Shown in pieces: positions 9,991 through 15,219 of a stretch of DNA of 64,000 nt; position 1 is the stretch's first letter; every line of letters begins with the position of its first letter. This stretch comes from a bacterium (GTDB taxonomy: Bacteria > Cyanobacteriota > Vampirovibrionia > Obscuribacterales > Obscuribacteraceae), in assembly GCA_016124935.1 (NCBI GenBank), contig WGMS01000011.1, positions 87,322-151,321 of the forward strand. The letters are read 5' to 3'. The position numbers and the translations under genes were made by a program. The notes beneath the pieces were generated by a model, which worked only from the letters and a program-made list of their open reading frames with translations, did no database searches and was not told the DNA's origin.

Positions 9991-10722
9991 TTACTTGCCG
10001 CCCAGGGTAGTGTCGATGGAGCGGCTTAGCTGCTCCAGTTCGTTGTACATAATTCTGTGCCGGTCGAAATTACTTCCGCTCTGGGAGCGCAACTGCGATT
10101 CCAGATCATGGATGCGATTCTCCATTTTAAAGAGATCGTTAGCCTGGGTTCTGTTGATGCGGCCCGCGGCCAGTCCGTTGGCGATTCTTTGATAGAGCAC
10201 ATTGCCTGCTATAGGTACCGGCGGGGTGCCGGGCGCTATTGAAGTAGCCGCCGGTGTCGTGACCGGGGTGGCAGCCGGGGTGGCAACAGATGTAGAAGCC
10301 GGTACTGTGGCGCTTCCCGGCGTTGTCGTACTTGTGTTATTAGTATAGTTCTGAATTTTTGTGCCCAGGGCTTCCATGGCTTGTACCATGGAGACTACTT
10401 CGGGGTCGTGCAGAGTGCCGTCGGCCATGGCCTGGGTGGCACTCTGTTTAATGGCATTGAGCTCGTTGGTCAGCTCCGTAGCCTCGGTAGTGGTCAGTTT
10501 CCCCGACTGAATTCCGGCCTGGATGTCGTTCTCCAGCCTGGACTGCTGCACGGCCAGATTGTTGAGGGTGGCCGCCTGGGCTCCGCCGCCGCCTTTCTTG
10601 AGGACGTTCTTGTCGACATAGTCTTTCATCATCTTCTGGAAATCCAGAGCCGAAGCAGGTAGTGGACTGACCATCGGAAGGATCAGGGAGATAACTAAAG
10701 TTGCGGCGAGCCTGCGCTTCAT
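9991..10722 (-). CDS. secreted helical protein with Thr/Pro/Ala linker, unknown function
   Basis: A signal peptide of about 26 residues ends ASA. The mature protein has an amphipathic helical block, then a low-complexity linker rich in Thr, Pro, Ala and Val (about residues 125-170), then a second helical block with coiled-coil character near the C-terminus. No catalytic motif is visible. ATG at 10722 is preceded on the minus strand by an AGGATTTG ribosome site. It converges with the secreted protein at 9054, leaving 19 bases between the stops. Confidence 0.65.
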   Translation of the reverse strand: MKRRLAATLVISLILPMVSPLPASALDFQKMMKDYVDKNVLKKGGGGAQAATLNNLAVQQSRLENDIQAGIQSGKLTTTEATELTNELNAIKQSATQAMADGTLHDPEVVSMVQAMEALGTKIQNYTNNTSTTTPGSATVPASTSVATPAATPVTTPAATSIAPGTPPVPIAGNVLYQRIANGLAAGRINRTQANDLFKMENRIHDLESQLRSQSGSNFDRHRIMYNELEQLSRSIDTTLGGK

Positions 10723-10843
10723 GACAAATCCTCAAGGTAAGTTCTAGATCTGGCTTTATTAAAGCACATATCGCCTGAAAAGATTAGGTTGTTACCTGGC
10801 GAAAGGCTTATGACTTTTCTTGTGATGGTTACCGGTGCGTGTA

Positions 10844-11131
10844 CTAGGAGTTCTGCACCTGTTTGCTCTCGTCCATGATCTTTTCATAGATGCGCATCAT
10901 GGCGGGCGCTAGAGAAGAGTTGCGAATATTGACGAGCAGGTGCTCGATTACTTTCTCTTCTCTCTTTTCATCGAGAATCGGCACACCGTCACGGGCTTTG
11001 AGGTAGCCTATCTCTCTAGCCAGATCCAATCTGGTTTCGAGCAGACCGGTTATCTCTCTATCTATCGCATCGATGGCGATTCTCATCTCTTGTATTTGCT
11101 TGTCTTCGGCGCTTATGTTCATTTCTTGCAT
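10844..11131 (-). CDS. chorismate mutase, AroQ class (monofunctional)
   Basis: This 95-residue all-helical protein matches the AroQ fold. It has RIAIDAIDREITGLLETRLDLAREIGYLK with the conserved Arg, Arg and Lys of the active site in helix 1, then PILDEKREEKVIEHL. It converts chorismate to prephenate. It lies 19 bases after the DAHP synthase gene on the same strand, so both should be expressed together and be controlled by the leader at 12026-12279. In many bacteria this domain is fused to PheA, TyrA or AroF; here it stands alone. Confidence 0.9.
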   Translation of the reverse strand: MQEMNISAEDKQIQEMRIAIDAIDREITGLLETRLDLAREIGYLKARDGVPILDEKREEKVIEHLLVNIRNSSLAPAMMRIYEKIMDESKQVQNS

Positions 11132-11150
11132 TTCTGATATTCCTCTATAT

Positions 11151-12008
11151 TCAAGCTACTTTTCTTGCCGGGATTCTCTTTGGCGCCGGCAGCGTTCTGC
11201 CGACGGCTCTTGCTATGCCGTCGAGGGAGTGAATCAGTTCACACAATTCGGGCAGGGTCAGGGCTTGTTTGGCATCTGAAACCGAACGCTCCGGTACTGG
11301 ATGGGCTTCTATGATGAGACCATCGGCACCACAGGCGATTGCGGCCCTGGAGAGATCGGGGATTATATCGGCTCTACCGGCGGCATGGCTGGGGTCAACC
11401 AGGACAGGCAGGTGGGTCATCTGTTTGAGAACAGCTACCGCTCCCAAATCAAGGACATTTCTTGTGCTCTGGTCATAGCTGCGGATACCTCTTTCGCAGA
11501 GAATTACCTTTTCATTGCCTTCGGCCATGATGTATTCGGCGGCGAGAATAAGCTCTTCTATGGTGGAGGAGAGACCGCGTTTGAGCAGGATGGGCTTATT
11601 AGATCTGCCCAACGCTTTTAAAAGCTCGAAGTTCTGCATATTGCGCGAGCCCACTTGCAGGATGTCGAGATGGTCGAGGGCGATATCGAGATGCTCTTTC
11701 GACATTACTTCAGAGACGAAGGGCATGCCGGAGATTCTGCGAGTCTCTTCTACGATGGTAAGCCCGTCGGCTCCCAGACCCTGGAAAGCGTAGGGGGAGG
11801 TTCTCGGTTTGAACAGACCGCCTCGGATGGCGTTTATCGGGGAGTTCGAGAGGACTCTTGCTACCTCTTTCATTTGATCCATATCTTCAATGGCGCAGGG
11901 ACCACCGATAAGAAGCAGCTCTTTGCCTCCCACCCGGCAGTCCCCGCTAATTGAGATGCTGCTTCTGTCGTTTGCATGCTTTTTGCGAGCTAGTTTGGCT
12001 TCCAACAT
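11151..12008 (-). CDS. aroF: 3-deoxy-7-phosphoheptulonate (DAHP) synthase, type I-beta
   Basis: Condenses phosphoenolpyruvate with erythrose-4-phosphate, the first step of the shikimate pathway. Visible motifs are IGGPCAIED (34-42), the KPRTSPYAFQG segment, ILLKRG, ILCERG and DPSHAAGR, with the metal and substrate ligands in place. Only about 30 residues precede the barrel, too few for the ferredoxin-like regulatory domain found in some homologues, and no chorismate mutase is fused. A strong AGAGGAGA ribosome site lies 8 bases before ATG at 12008. It directly follows two tandem attenuators and precedes chorismate mutase. Confidence 0.92.
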   Translation of the reverse strand: MLEAKLARKKHANDRSSISISGDCRVGGKELLLIGGPCAIEDMDQMKEVARVLSNSPINAIRGGLFKPRTSPYAFQGLGADGLTIVEETRRISGMPFVSEVMSKEHLDIALDHLDILQVGSRNMQNFELLKALGRSNKPILLKRGLSSTIEELILAAEYIMAEGNEKVILCERGIRSYDQSTRNVLDLGAVAVLKQMTHLPVLVDPSHAAGRADIIPDLSRAAIACGADGLIIEAHPVPERSVSDAKQALTLPELCELIHSLDGIARAVGRTLPAPKRIPARKVA

Positions 12009-12025
12009 TTAAAAATCTCCTCTGT

Positions 12026-12062
12026 AAAACAAAACTCCGGACTTCTTTGGGAAGTCCGGAGT
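12026..12062 (-). terminator. intrinsic terminator 2 (attenuator)
   Basis: ACTCCGGACTTC (12062-12051) and GAAGTCCGGAGT (12045-12034) form a perfect 12-base-pair stem with a 5-base loop, followed by TTT, G and TTTT. It ends only about 18 bases before the start codon of aroF and just before its ribosome site, a position expected for an attenuator rather than a gene-end terminator. Confidence 0.92.
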
Positions 12063-12103
12063 CAACACATAACCTTGATGAACGACTCTACTCAGGACTT
12101 CCC
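12049..12103 (-). promoter_or_regulatory. antiterminator stem 2
   Basis: GGGAAGTCCTGAGT (12103-12090) can pair with ACTCCGGACTTCCC (12062-12049) with 13 of 14 bases matched, the one mismatch being T-C, around a 27-base loop. The second arm contains the whole 5' arm of terminator 2 (12062-12051), so this stem and the terminator exclude each other completely. Confidence 0.87.
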
Positions 12104-12150
12104 CTGTTTGCGCTTCCAAAAAAATAAAAATAGGTATTGGCTGTGGTCAT
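12088..12150 (-). CDS. attenuator leader peptide 2 (Tyr/Phe-rich)
   Basis: A 20-codon ORF starts at ATG 12150 and stops at TAG 12090-12088. It encodes MTTANTYFYFFGSANRGSPE, with five consecutive Tyr/Phe codons at 12132-12118. An AAGGGA ribosome site lies about 8 bases upstream. The first arm of antiterminator 2 starts in the Arg codon and runs to the first base of the stop codon, so a ribosome that finishes the peptide would mask it. The peptide shares only the YFYFF core with leader 1. Confidence 0.9.
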   Translation of the reverse strand: MTTANTYFYFFGSANRGSPE

Positions 12151-12163
12151 TATCTTTTCCCTT

Positions 12164-12199
12164 ATAAACAAAAAACCGTGGAGCTCACGGTCCACGGTT
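12164..12199 (-). terminator. intrinsic terminator 1 (attenuator)
   Basis: On the minus strand AACCGTGGA (12199-12191), an 8-base loop and TCCACGGTT (12182-12174) form a perfect 9-base-pair stem, followed by TTTT, G and TTT. It lies between the two leader ORFs, so it would stop transcription before leader 2 and aroF unless antiterminator 1 forms. Confidence 0.88.
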
Positions 12200-12239
12200 C
12201 ATCTGATGTGCAAGAGCTCGGCTCGAAATCAGATGAACC
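12196..12239 (-). promoter_or_regulatory. antiterminator stem 1
   Basis: A perfect 11-base inverted repeat, GGTTCATCTGA at 12239-12229 and TCAGATGAACC at 12206-12196, encloses a 22-base loop. The first arm is the end of leader ORF 1 including its stop codon. The last four bases of the second arm (12199-12196) are the first four bases of terminator 1, so the two stems cannot both form fully. Confidence 0.85.
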
Positions 12240-12279
12240 TCGGGGCAAAAAAGTAAAAGTAGTAGGATTTGTTGCTCAT
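12229..12279 (-). CDS. attenuator leader peptide 1 (Tyr/Phe-rich)
   Basis: A 16-codon ORF on the minus strand starts at ATG 12279 and stops at TGA 12231-12229. It encodes MSNKSYYFYFFAPRFI. Seven of the 16 codons are Tyr or Phe, six of them consecutive (12264-12247). The last four codons plus the stop overlap the first arm of antiterminator 1. A ribosome stalled on the Tyr/Phe run would leave that arm free, while a ribosome at the stop would cover it. An AGG sits only 2 bases before ATG, so translation may begin from a very short or leaderless 5' end. Confidence 0.88.
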   Translation of the reverse strand: MSNKSYYFYFFAPRFI

Positions 12280-12286
12280 GACCTAG

Positions 12287-12315
12287 ATGTTATATCCGTC
12301 AGGGAACCAGGTCAA
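12287..12315 (-). promoter_or_regulatory. putative sigma-70 promoter of the attenuated operon
   Basis: On the minus strand TTGACC (12315-12310) is separated by 17 bases from TAACAT (12292-12287). Transcription would start about 7 bases later, at or next to the ATG of leader 1 (12279). That would give a leaderless or nearly leaderless leader mRNA. TATAAC at 15-base spacing overlaps and is an alternative -10. Readthrough from the upstream genes is also possible. Confidence 0.45.
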
Positions 12316-12345
12316 GATCAAATCGCGATGATGTTAATGTTTACA

Positions 12346-13713
12346 TTACAATTGCTGGAGTCGTTCCACGAACAAGAACTGGGTGAAGTTGGTTGAGGAA
12401 TCCTGGAGGTTCTCCTCCACGATTTTGAGATCGTTGATTTCGGCGAGCACCCGGCTGCCCATGGTGGCGACATTGGCAGGAATCTCGCCTTTTGCCAGCA
12501 ACTCTGCCACTCGAGCGTGATCTATTAGTTCACCTTCTCCTACTTTGAGCTCCAGCTTCGAGTATTTATGGGCGAGATTGTCTTTACACTGGCTGAAGAC
12601 CTGGGGATGAGCCATGATCGTATCGATTTTGTCGAAACGGCTATCTTTTCTAATCATCAGGGCATGGGCTATTTTGATGCCGAACTCTTCTACAATTTGA
12701 AAACGATATTCGGCCATAGCCCAGGCGCTCTCTTGAACCAGCCCGCCCACCGAGTTATGGATGGCGAATTGACCCCGGTCGATATCGCCGGCTTCCAGCG
12801 CCCGCAGTACGTTTTCGGTGGTATGAAGATAGACCAATTCAAATGGCTCTTCTGGTGTGCGAGAGAGATAATAGCGGGCAGCCTCTTCGTTGAAGCTGCC
12901 TCGACCGCCCTGAATTCCTACCACCAGCCGGTCTTTATGTATACGATTCGGCATCGCTCTTGCATAAATTGCTTTCTGGGCGGCGGTCAGCCTGGCTACC
13001 GTCTCTCTTGAGTACGGATTGTAATACTGTAGATCGTCGAAGAGCTGCCAGGTATCGTTGGCGACCTGGTTTTTTAAGTCATTCAGTCTGGTCGCACCCA
13101 GGGTATCTATGGCCGTCGGCTCGATTCCTGCATGCTCTAGCATTCTTCCTATGAAGTGAGCGATGCCCTGGCTTTTGGCCGCCAGCTCGTCATGGCGGTC
13201 ACAGGACAGCTCCAGCACCTCCATGCCGCGCTTTTTGAAATAGTCAAGGAAGTAGTTGTATTCCTCATCGTTCAGGTCGAGGCGGTCTACTACTATGCGT
13301 TTACCGGTCAGATTGAGATCTTCGTCGATGCTATCCGGTCCGAACATAGGATGAGTCAAAAGCACCCTTACATTTTGCGGTTTCTCTCTTATGAAAACCT
13401 GCTTAGGATAAGATTTGACCGAGAGCACATCTATGACAGTCTTTTGAGTCCCATCTTTCTCCAGCAGTTTGCGATGGCTTTTGAAAATCTCTTCGAATAA
13501 AGAGATTGGTACGCAATAGATGATAATCTCCCGGGCCAGGGTGGTTTCGAGGTCGGCAACGGCAAGACCCGCCTCTTTTGCCCGGGCAAGAGCGACTGCG
13601 TTATCGTCATAGGCAACCAGATCGAAATCATCTTTTAAAATCCGGGCAAAAAGCAGCCCGAATCTTCCTAAGCCGATAAGGCCCAGTTTCCGCTTCGCAT
13701 TTTCAGAAACCAT
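12346..13713 (-). CDS. fused prephenate dehydrogenase-prephenate dehydratase (TyrA-PheA type)
   Basis: Residues 1 to about 280 are a prephenate dehydrogenase: the Rossmann motif GLGRFG near residue 14, THPMFGPDSIDED, and SQGIAHFIGRML. From about residue 283 a prephenate dehydratase-like domain follows: GGRGSFNEEAA, FAIHNSVGG (for the usual ENS segment), AHPQVFSQC, and NFTQFLF in place of the catalytic TRF region. The protein ends there, with no C-terminal ACT domain and no chorismate mutase domain. It would draw prephenate towards both tyrosine and phenylalanine. ATG at 13713 is 3 bases after the phosphofructokinase stop, so the two are co-transcribed. Whether both activities are retained is not shown by sequence alone. 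Confidence 0.82.
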   Translation of the reverse strand: MVSENAKRKLGLIGLGRFGLLFARILKDDFDLVAYDDNAVALARAKEAGLAVADLETTLAREIIIYCVPISLFEEIFKSHRKLLEKDGTQKTVIDVLSVKSYPKQVFIREKPQNVRVLLTHPMFGPDSIDEDLNLTGKRIVVDRLDLNDEEYNYFLDYFKKRGMEVLELSCDRHDELAAKSQGIAHFIGRMLEHAGIEPTAIDTLGATRLNDLKNQVANDTWQLFDDLQYYNPYSRETVARLTAAQKAIYARAMPNRIHKDRLVVGIQGGRGSFNEEAARYYLSRTPEEPFELVYLHTTENVLRALEAGDIDRGQFAIHNSVGGLVQESAWAMAEYRFQIVEEFGIKIAHALMIRKDSRFDKIDTIMAHPQVFSQCKDNLAHKYSKLELKVGEGELIDHARVAELLAKGEIPANVATMGSRVLAEINDLKIVEENLQDSSTNFTQFLFVERLQQL

Positions 13714-13716
13714 AGA

Positions 13717-14922
13717 TTAATAGACCCGAGCTGGCACGCCGGAAATATTTTTGACGGTTACTTCCGCAGTCTCCGGCACTCTGCCGAAGCTGACACCGAG
13801 GGTTTCGTATAGAGCAACGTCTTTTTCGTCGACAAAGCGTTGTTTGATAGCGTCGTCGACTTCCATGTATTCGATTTTGCCGCTCCGATAAGAAGAGACC
13901 GTGACACCATAAGTGCCTCTTGAAACCAGCTCCACAGCGGCAGCGCCTGCTTCCAGTCCGAAGGTGGCGTCCACCGCCGAAGTGAAGCCGCACCGCATCA
14001 GGTGGCTTGGTCTTATTTCTCTGACTTCAGGAATTTCATAGACCCCTTCGACGAATTGTCCGGTCTGCTGCATGAAGGATTTGACTGTGGCATCTGCTTT
14101 GATGCGGTCTTCGAGCTGTTTGACCACATATTTGCCGGCGCCCATCAGTTTGCGATGACCGAAGGAGTCCGGTTTGGAATCCATGTCCACCAGTTCGTTG
14201 CCCGAAGCGTCTCTCAGTCCTTCGGCTACCACTATCATGGCGGTGCCTGCTTTGACATCGCTGTCTTCGATACGCTTGATGAAAAGATCGATGATGTGGC
14301 GATAGAGAACATCGAAATCTACTGGGATTTCCGGAATGAGAACGGCGTCGGCGTCGGCGGCCACTCCGCCCCGGAAGGCTGTGTGACCGGCATAGCGTCC
14401 GAAGACCTCCATGACGATGATACGGTTATGGGTGCGGCCGGTGGTTCTCAGGTCTCGGACCGCTTCGGCGATGCGATTGATGGTCGAGTCCCCGCCCACA
14501 CTGTAGGTCATCAGGTCGAGGTCCATGGTCTTGGGGGCGTGCACACAGGAGATTCCTTGCTTGGCCAGATCTGCGACCACCGAGCCGGTGTCGTCGCCGC
14601 CGGATATCACCAGGGCATCGAGCTTGTGTTTGGCGAGACCATCTTTGATTCTTTCGTATTTATTCTCGTCTTTGATTTTAGATATTTTGACGCGAGAATT
14701 GCCGGCTTCGGAGCCTGCCAGGTATACAGGTATGGCTTCGATGCGGTCCCTGGTCAATTCGGTCAGTTTGTCGATTTCTATCAGGTTGTAAAGTCCGGCG
14801 TAGCCGTTGGGAATGATCCAGGCTTTCATGCCTTTGGAAAGAGCCGTGAGTGCTGCTCCTTTGACGACTCCGTTGAGTCCGCCACAGTCCCCACCAGATG
14901 TGATGATCCCTATGTTTTGCAT
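13717..14922 (-). CDS. 6-phosphofructokinase, pyrophosphate-dependent type predicted
   Basis: PFK-A family enzyme that phosphorylates fructose-6-phosphate. It has the N-terminal TSGGDCGGLN loop, ISGGDDTGS (106-114), PKTMDLDL (130-137), GGDSTIN and EVFGRYAGH. The second Asp of GGDD (111) marks PPi-using enzymes; ATP-using enzymes have Gly there. It is 401 residues, longer than E. coli PfkA (320), as in group II/III PFKs. GGAGGAG lies 3 bases before ATG at 14922. It heads the run into the aromatic genes. Phosphate donor preference is inferred from one residue. Confidence 0.85.
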   Translation of the reverse strand: MQNIGIITSGGDCGGLNGVVKGAALTALSKGMKAWIIPNGYAGLYNLIEIDKLTELTRDRIEAIPVYLAGSEAGNSRVKISKIKDENKYERIKDGLAKHKLDALVISGGDDTGSVVADLAKQGISCVHAPKTMDLDLMTYSVGGDSTINRIAEAVRDLRTTGRTHNRIIVMEVFGRYAGHTAFRGGVAADADAVLIPEIPVDFDVLYRHIIDLFIKRIEDSDVKAGTAMIVVAEGLRDASGNELVDMDSKPDSFGHRKLMGAGKYVVKQLEDRIKADATVKSFMQQTGQFVEGVYEIPEVREIRPSHLMRCGFTSAVDATFGLEAGAAAVELVSRGTYGVTVSSYRSGKIEYMEVDDAIKQRFVDEKDVALYETLGVSFGRVPETAEVTVKNISGVPARVY

Positions 14923-15219
14923 GGCTCCTCCAGATAAGCTTGGTGATGAATTTCTATCACGAACCAGCCCCTTTTAGATCTTGACTAATGCCTTAATTCT
15001 CGGCGGCAGCCTTTCCCAAGTCTGAAAGAGTAAGGCCCGTCCGTTGGGCGCTCATCGGACTATTATTAACCAAGATGAACTATAATAAGAGCTATGTGCA
15101 ATCATCATGTAGACCGCAAATCCTTCATAGTCCATGTCATAAAGCGAATTCTCACCACAGGAATCTTCGCCGCTCTTATCTGTCAGCTTTTTCTCGGCAC
15201 TACATCAATTACAGGCTGA
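14923..15219. other. intergenic region upstream of the phosphofructokinase gene
   Basis: About 300 bases lie between two minus-strand genes. It should hold the promoter of the phosphofructokinase-aromatic block. I could not identify a convincing -35/-10 pair, a terminator with a T-tract, or a leader peptide. A plus-strand open frame here runs into the gene at 15220 in antisense and has no coding support. Confidence 0.4.

Follow-up and report, generated by a model that had tools for sequence, protein, structure and literature searches.

The locus lies on the minus strand of a 64-kb stretch of DNA (64,000 nucleotides, called the window below) from a member of the Obscuribacteraceae, where the genes run in the order phosphofructokinase, prephenate dehydrogenase/dehydratase fusion, aroF and chorismate mutase (Table 1). 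The gap between the prephenate dehydrogenase/dehydratase gene and aroF contains two leader-ORF/antiterminator/terminator units in series on the same strand, and aroF starts 79 nt past leader 2. An earlier note on this DNA had placed two such units in 12026..12279, with Tyr/Phe runs in both leaders and perfect stems with T-tracts in both terminators; all of these features were confirmed at that place, on the minus strand. When both strands of the window were scanned for short ORFs with at least five aromatic codons in six that are followed by a terminator, exactly two combinations were found, namely the two aroF leaders (the second reported from an upstream in-frame GTG), and none was found in any of 30 first-order Markov shuffles. 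The single elements are less telling: in 10700-15000 five terminator-like sites were present against 4.2 in shuffles, so that they are singly not rare, and the one promoter-like site in the same interval compares with a shuffle mean of 3.4 and is not significant alone.

Table 1. Genes and putative regulatory features of the aroF locus (window positions)
Feature	Position	Strand	Remarks
aroQ, chorismate mutase	10844..11131	-	gene after aroF, same direction
aroF, type I DAHP synthase, short form	11151..12008	-	lacks N-terminal ~68 profile positions (aligned 69-336 of 338, NF006421)
Terminator 2	12026..12062	-	12-bp perfect stem 12062-12051/12045-12034; T-tract 12033-12026
Unit 2 arm B	12049..12062	-	common to antiterminator and terminator
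Leader ORF 2, MTTANTYFYFFGSANRGSPE	12088..12150	-	Tyr/Phe run 12132-12118; conserved in relatives
Unit 2 arm A	12090..12103	-	last codons of leader 2; 14 nt, 93% complementary to 12062-12049 (one mismatch)
Terminator 1	12166..12199	-	9-bp perfect stem 12199-12191/12182-12174; T-tract 12173-12166
Unit 1 arm B, antiterminator 3' arm	12196..12207	-	last 4 nt also within terminator stem
Unit 1 arm A, antiterminator 5' arm	12228..12239	-	overlaps leader-1 end and stop codon
Leader ORF 1, MSNKSYYFYFFAPRFI	12229..12279	-	Tyr/Phe run 12264-12247; position and aromatic run conserved in relatives
Sigma-70-like promoter, TTGACC-N17-TAACAT	12287..12315	-	single promoter-like site within 10700-15000
Prephenate dehydrogenase/dehydratase fusion	12346..13713	-	gene upstream of aroF gap

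Promoter-like sites also occur at other loci. Among 75 unit-1 loci, 67 carry a match of at least 9/12 within 120 nt upstream of leader 1, and the best match averages 9.1 against 7.4 in shuffled sequence. The -10 element stands 7 nt upstream of the leader-1 ATG in both leader-bearing aroF copies of the window's genome (the window and a second copy, L038) and 24-60 nt upstream at the other loci shown (81 for a weak match at L186). Because a start directed by this site would fall at or next to the ATG, the mRNA may carry little or no 5' untranslated sequence ahead of leader 1, whose translation would then be leaderless or almost so, unless transcription enters from upstream.

In unit 1 the antiterminator is a 12-bp perfect hairpin. 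Its arm B has 4 nt (12199-12196) in common with the terminator 5' arm, to which the fold adds 3 more pairs. The unit folds into the antiterminator (-33.9), and masking of arm A gives the terminator fold (-17.1). Even when arm B is engaged in the antiterminator, a 6-bp hairpin (-7.6 kcal/mol) is left adjoining the T-tract in the predicted fold. The idea that this residual hairpin is peculiar to the window's aroF copy was rejected: in a rough scan, which left 7 of 75 loci unanchored and misplaced the window by its own repeat, an inner stem of at least 5 bp survived antitermination in 57 of 68 anchored loci, in 44 of the 57 at 2 nt from the T run. Since an inner stem is left at most loci, unit-1 antitermination would shorten and shift the terminator stem, not abolish it, and the unit-1 gate, when open, may leak less or more than classical gates. 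The arms of unit 2 are ordered differently in energy: at equilibrium the terminator (-27.9) is favoured over the antiterminator (-23.3), which is folded before the last arm is made. As the antiterminator can win only in that interval, modelling implies that the unit-2 gate must work kinetically. In the window 13 of 200 shuffles pair as well as the unit-2 arms do, and a local hairpin lies within arm A of this unit. The two structures of each unit had been called mutually exclusive; exclusion is weaker than that, given the inner stem left in unit 1 and the preference of unit 2 for its terminator at equilibrium.

The leader-1 frame of the window is shifted relative to its relatives, while the arm letters and their pairing are retained, which points to selection on the RNA. 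At L188 and L191 leader 1 does not run past arm A but stops where the arm begins or shortly before, and the arms are intact. A protector hairpin, which sets termination when the leader is untranslated and is not required of every attenuator, was sought upstream of arm A of leader 1 in 72 loci. Arm-A bases paired upstream averaged 5.2 against 5.9 in shuffled leaders, and just one of the 72 loci beats 29/30 shuffles; an apparent pairing of arm A with upstream sequence, suggested for 39 of the 72, was rejected because it does not exceed shuffles.

Relatives were collected by an AroF search, which gave matches in 59 of 60 genomes (own included, distant enzyme relatives counted), and by a family-level search in 50 Obscuribacteraceae genomes (own included). 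Short-type loci were defined as the 46 family matches with E <=1.8e-98. Two aromatic leaders precede aroF at 37 of them (counting the weakly structured L038, and L008, whose leader 1 is cut off by a contig end), one leader at 4 and none at 5. The earlier note had staked its reading on leaders and stems being kept in close relatives. Losses do occur, of leader 2 in 4/46 loci and of both leaders in 5/46, but the rest retain their leaders, and the nine absences are read as lineage losses. By the T-tract rule, unit 2 is without a T-tract terminator at 9 of the 37 two-leader loci. Leader 2 is kept without such a terminator in all three loci of genus code g13 (L015, L018, L134) and in five of eight two-leader loci of g23 (L021, L025, L133, L138, L140); in these two genera unit 2 may have come to work differently. 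Three loci of another family in the same class (L028, L029, L030) carry a single aromatic leader before aroF, which possibly represents a pre-tandem state. In a midpoint-rooted FastTree phylogeny the family's long-form paralogs that were retrieved, with the exception of L043, form a separate clade with L048 (another family; support 0.994). No aromatic leader was seen adjoining the long-form family genes; L040 has one TTG ORF at -632.

We then examined whether the arms have changed together. In 38 unit-1 sequences the antiterminator is paired in 94.0% of cells, with double changes in 8 of 11 pairs (28 cells), and the terminator in 94.4%, with double changes in 5 of 10 pairs (26 cells); for both helices, 0/500 shuffles reach the paired values or the covariation scores. 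Column 72 takes part in both helices and is A or G, it pairs with U in arm A (in one case C) and with either U or C in the terminator arm; where it changes to G, the terminator answers with C and the arm-A U wobbles. Unit-2 pairs were counted in oxygenic cyanobacteria only (29 sequences), the cross-group alignment being poor. The terminator is paired in 94.1% of cells, with double changes in 3 of 10 pairs and 14 cells, values reached by 0/500 shuffles for cells and 145/500 for pairs. The antiterminator is paired in 88.6%, with double changes in 3 pairs and 9 cells (shuffles: cells 0/500, pairs 207/500, further types 469/500), so that two of five covariation measures for this helix in cyanobacteria are not above shuffles. 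In an alignment-free partner test the A-B duplex of a locus was stronger than duplexes with other loci's partners, both in unit 1 (n=45, p 8.5e-14) and in unit 2 (n=37, p 9.4e-8), and the own partner was within the best 5% in 18/45 and 10/37 loci, respectively. The pair shuffles, like the composition permutations below, ignore relatedness. A terminator overlaps the antiterminator in 75/75 unit-1 loci examined, a set that includes 30 loci chosen by the unit-1 model, and in 65/75 unit-2 loci, a set that includes the single-leader L028-L030 and a misread ORF (L180); T-tract terminators are present in 75/75 unit-1 loci.

aroF is preceded by the same tandem in Richelia, Nostoc (two), Rhizonema and an uncultured cyanobacterium (L050, L051, L053, L054, L056). 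Model R1, built from 38 unit-1 sequences with the window among them, is circular as proof for the window and was not used so; R2 (for unit 1) and R3 (for unit 2) therefore took in sequences of oxygenic cyanobacteria only. In the 64-kb window R2 has its sole match up to E 1 at 12255-12158 (E 1.4e-7). The best R3 match is 12130-12011 (E 1.6e-6), with unit 1 second (6.7e-5), perhaps due to the common aromatic run and T-tract. Among 28 leader-bearing family loci, R2 finds unit 1 at E <0.01 in 27 (L038 has E 0.2) and R3 finds unit 2 in 18; five long-form negatives (L037, L041, L045, L046, L047) are matched by neither. The comparison of upstream regions that the earlier note had called for thus shows conserved leader ORFs and stems with compensatory changes, and models made from cyanobacteria recover both units. 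Its guess at a cyanobacterial kinship was right as well: relatives match Candidatus Obscuribacterales, and the tandem recurs in Nostocales and other cyanobacteria. Neither model fits the single leaders of L028-L030 well (best E 0.13 with R2 and 0.12 with R3), and no order of age or copying between the units follows from them.

Of 386 genomes sampled evenly across the phylum, R1 matched 39. All 30 R1 loci returned lie upstream of aroF and 29 of them have a second aromatic leader, a figure conditional on the R1 match; prevalence was therefore counted from AroF first. Short AroF (E <=1e-100) occurs in 37 of the 386 genomes, the window's own included, and unit 1 lies 55-328 nt upstream in 36 of them. 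The cut-off was chosen after the list had been seen, and the next entries are the second copy of the window's genome (1.8e-98) and one at 8.7e-90. The exception is a cyanobacterium (G209) with unit 2 present (R3 E 2.4e-8) and unit 1 unmatched by R1 and R2, the latter up to E 1. Away from an intact short aroF, R1 matches G445, where the gene is interrupted, and G099 (E 0.0056), where just an AroF-like piece (query residues 46-103) is nearby; a match in G307 (E 0.0064) has no AroF within the 3 kb fetched and was taken as chance. We concluded that the tandem unit is a well-supported candidate, judged from sequence comparison, in several cyanobacterial families of the sample. As a separate observation, the aroF coding sequence at L202 (G445:C1:3950300-3958400) and L173 is split past residue ∼77 by ∼5.8 kb of DNA, which is bounded on either side by a 16-bp direct repeat and contains a phage-integrase-family ORF. 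This insertion resembles the excision elements of heterocyst-forming cyanobacteria.

To compare the codons of the two leaders, Phe, Tyr and Trp were counted in the densest nine residues of each. At 24 loci, left after 12 near-identical ones had been thinned out, leader 1 and leader 2 are correlated with Spearman coefficients of 0.84 for F, 0.91 for Y and 0.86 for W (0.80, 0.89 and 0.80 in all 36), and the permutation p of 2e-4 for each is the floor of 5000 permutations. Six genomes carry two attenuated aroF copies each, with the amino acids apportioned between them in 6/6; by comparison alone, these paralog pairs suggest that the two leaders of a copy follow the same amino acids. In four of the genomes (G010, G023, G033, G064) each leader of one copy has Tyr and no more than a single Phe, and each leader of the other has Phe/Trp and no more than a single Tyr. 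G034 combines a copy that has Phe only with a mixed Trp/Tyr/Phe copy, the leader 1 of which is cut by a contig end. In the genome of the window (G000) the window copy has Tyr/Phe. In L038, leader 1 contains a single Trp, and leader 2 contains three Trp and a Phe; this copy matches poorly (R2 E 0.2) and its antiterminators are not above shuffles, so that its Trp leaders are only suggestive. Among 29 non-divided leader-bearing family loci, 26 contain Phe, Tyr and Trp. The exceptions are L004 and L016, which are without Trp and for which no attenuated partner copy was found, and L024, without Tyr, in a 66%-complete genome. The Tyr and Phe named in the earlier note are right for the window copy; these 26 loci contain Trp as well, and Trp is prominent before the second copy.

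The amino-acid split seems to have arisen more than once, since the Phe/Trp and Phe-only copies stand in different parts of the AroF tree, although several of its inner branches are weakly supported. The window's genome also encodes a third, long-form DAHP synthase (L037, G000:C31:103204-103932) with the N-terminal region present and no leader, which may be a feedback-inhibited isozyme. Since the short AroF proteins tested lack this N-terminal region, codon-level control may stand in for feedback inhibition in them. With Trp leaders at the second copy and no leader at the long form, the isozymes of this genome appear to share out the three amino acids by way of leader codons.

The elements by which an attenuator is recognised were thus found here: a leader ORF with a run of end-product codons, an antiterminator and a terminator that share an arm (partially in unit 1), and compensatory changes (in unit 1; mixed in unit 2). 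We consider it most likely that the gap holds two ribosome-mediated transcription attenuators in series that read the same amino acids. In the proposed mechanism, a ribosome that reaches the leader stop would cover arm A, leave arm B free and allow the terminator to form, whereas a ribosome stalled in the Tyr/Phe run would leave arm A free to pair with arm B, which would shorten the terminator or keep it from forming. Full-length aroF-aroQ mRNA would require ribosomes to stall on both leaders for shortage of charged Tyr- or Phe-tRNA. As leader 1 gives no sign of a conserved hairpin that shields arm A, transcription would be expected to pass a leader 1 that is not translated. Two gates that answer the same signal should multiply, giving a lower leak and a steeper response.

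The main doubt concerns unit 2. It might be a copy in decay, terminate constitutively or control the translation of aroF, with unit 1 as the only sensor of amino acids. Unit 1 is indeed the more constant of the two (terminator overlap in 75/75 against 65/75 loci), the T-tract terminator is missing from unit 2 in 9/37 family loci, R3 falls below E 0.01 in just 18/28, and unit 2 of the window folds into its terminator at equilibrium. We nevertheless regard this reading as rather unlikely: R3, made from cyanobacteria only, recovers unit 2 of the window, the arms of unit 2 prefer their own partners (p 9.4e-8), the composition of leader 2 tracks that of leader 1 in the paralog pairs, an aromatic leader 2 is present in 29 of 30 R1-selected cyanobacterial loci, and G209 has unit 2 (R3 E 2.4e-8) where the unit-1 models are unmatched.

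Two further readings were weighed. That the leaders act on translation, by reinitiation or through peptide products, and not on transcription termination could be argued from the unit-2 versions without a T-tract and from the 79 nt between leader 2 and aroF, but is made very improbable by the T-tract terminators at 75/75 unit-1 loci and by the covariation of the terminator stems. It is harder still to credit that the hairpins form a ligand- or protein-binding RNA switch with incidental ORFs. The arms are long, strongly conserved and able to fold without a ribosome; against such a switch, the aromatic runs immediately precede arm A, which itself falls within the final codons of the leader, the codon content follows the isozyme, and Rfam gave no match at gathering score for 16 related loci and low-scoring matches below it for the window. 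No Rfam family was matched by the window or those 16 loci; neither a Phe, Trp, His, Leu or Thr leader nor a T-box is among the nine window matches with E up to 10.

Returning to serial attenuation, we think it reasonably likely, though less firmly so than the mechanism itself, that a same-signal double attenuator acts on the aromatic entry enzyme in oxygenic Cyanobacteria and their non-photosynthetic sister lineage, and that after gene duplication the amino acids were split among DAHP synthase isozymes by joint codon change in both leaders, specificity residing in leader codons rather than in an allosteric domain. Two gates in series that read the same amino acids would constitute a circuit design for multiplicative gating, and the paralog pairs are natural codon-swap experiments which make the isozyme division directly testable. 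In the literature searched, mostly open access with subscription journals largely outside its scope, we found no earlier report of a tandem aroF attenuator, of a same-signal series of two gates, or of a leader or attenuator for a cyanobacterial DAHP synthase. Single Phe/Tyr/Trp-rich short ORFs precede DAHP synthase genes in Acidobacteria (L084, L095, L113, L117, L123), in Clostridia and kin (L072, L085, L105, L109), in Gemmatimonadaceae (L060) and in the Acholeplasma group (L066, L104), with terminator-like stems at several of these loci; aromatic attenuation of DAHP synthase may be widespread in bacteria.

The trp, his and pheA leaders of enterobacteria are single ribosome-mediated attenuators. 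The present units are like them in the run of product codons, the competing antiterminator and the intrinsic terminator, and differ in that there are two full units with mixed Phe/Tyr/Trp runs in most relatives, placed before the first common enzyme, in Cyanobacteriota and with no sign of a leader-1 protector hairpin. In a survey of Actinobacteria the word DAHP is absent, and the elements named in its abstract are trp, trpS, leuS, ilvB, cys and leuA (PMC1262725). Term searches of two other papers gave neither aroF, DAHP nor cyanobacter (PMC11109978; PMC6429828). The rimP leader of some Gammaproteobacteria has a second tandem terminator, one of the pair with a potential antiterminator (PMC2965389); it is alike in its tandem terminators, and the available part of its description has no amino-acid-reading leader ORFs. 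The excerpted account of the Bacillus clausii metE leader describes tandem riboswitches with two intrinsic terminators in series and two different ligands bound directly (PMC3641672), thus two sensors and two terminators as here, but metE binds metabolites and has no leader peptides. A further case is uORFC-13-1, in the available text a predicted uORF with Phe codon(s) and a terminator before aroF, known only from Acholeplasma and environmental DNA (PMC8632094); it shares with our locus the Phe-codon leader and terminator before DAHP synthase, with one uORF and one terminator where we find two of each. In Salmonella mgtCBR, which its authors call a singular example, a leader RNA likewise contains two ORFs that both influence downstream transcription; its leaders answer different signals (ATP and proline) additively, and its stems are, according to the authors, unlike intrinsic terminators (PMC3641672). 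In contrast to mgtCBR, both units of the tandem described here have intrinsic terminators and would read the same amino acids, their composition being matched as judged by codon content only.
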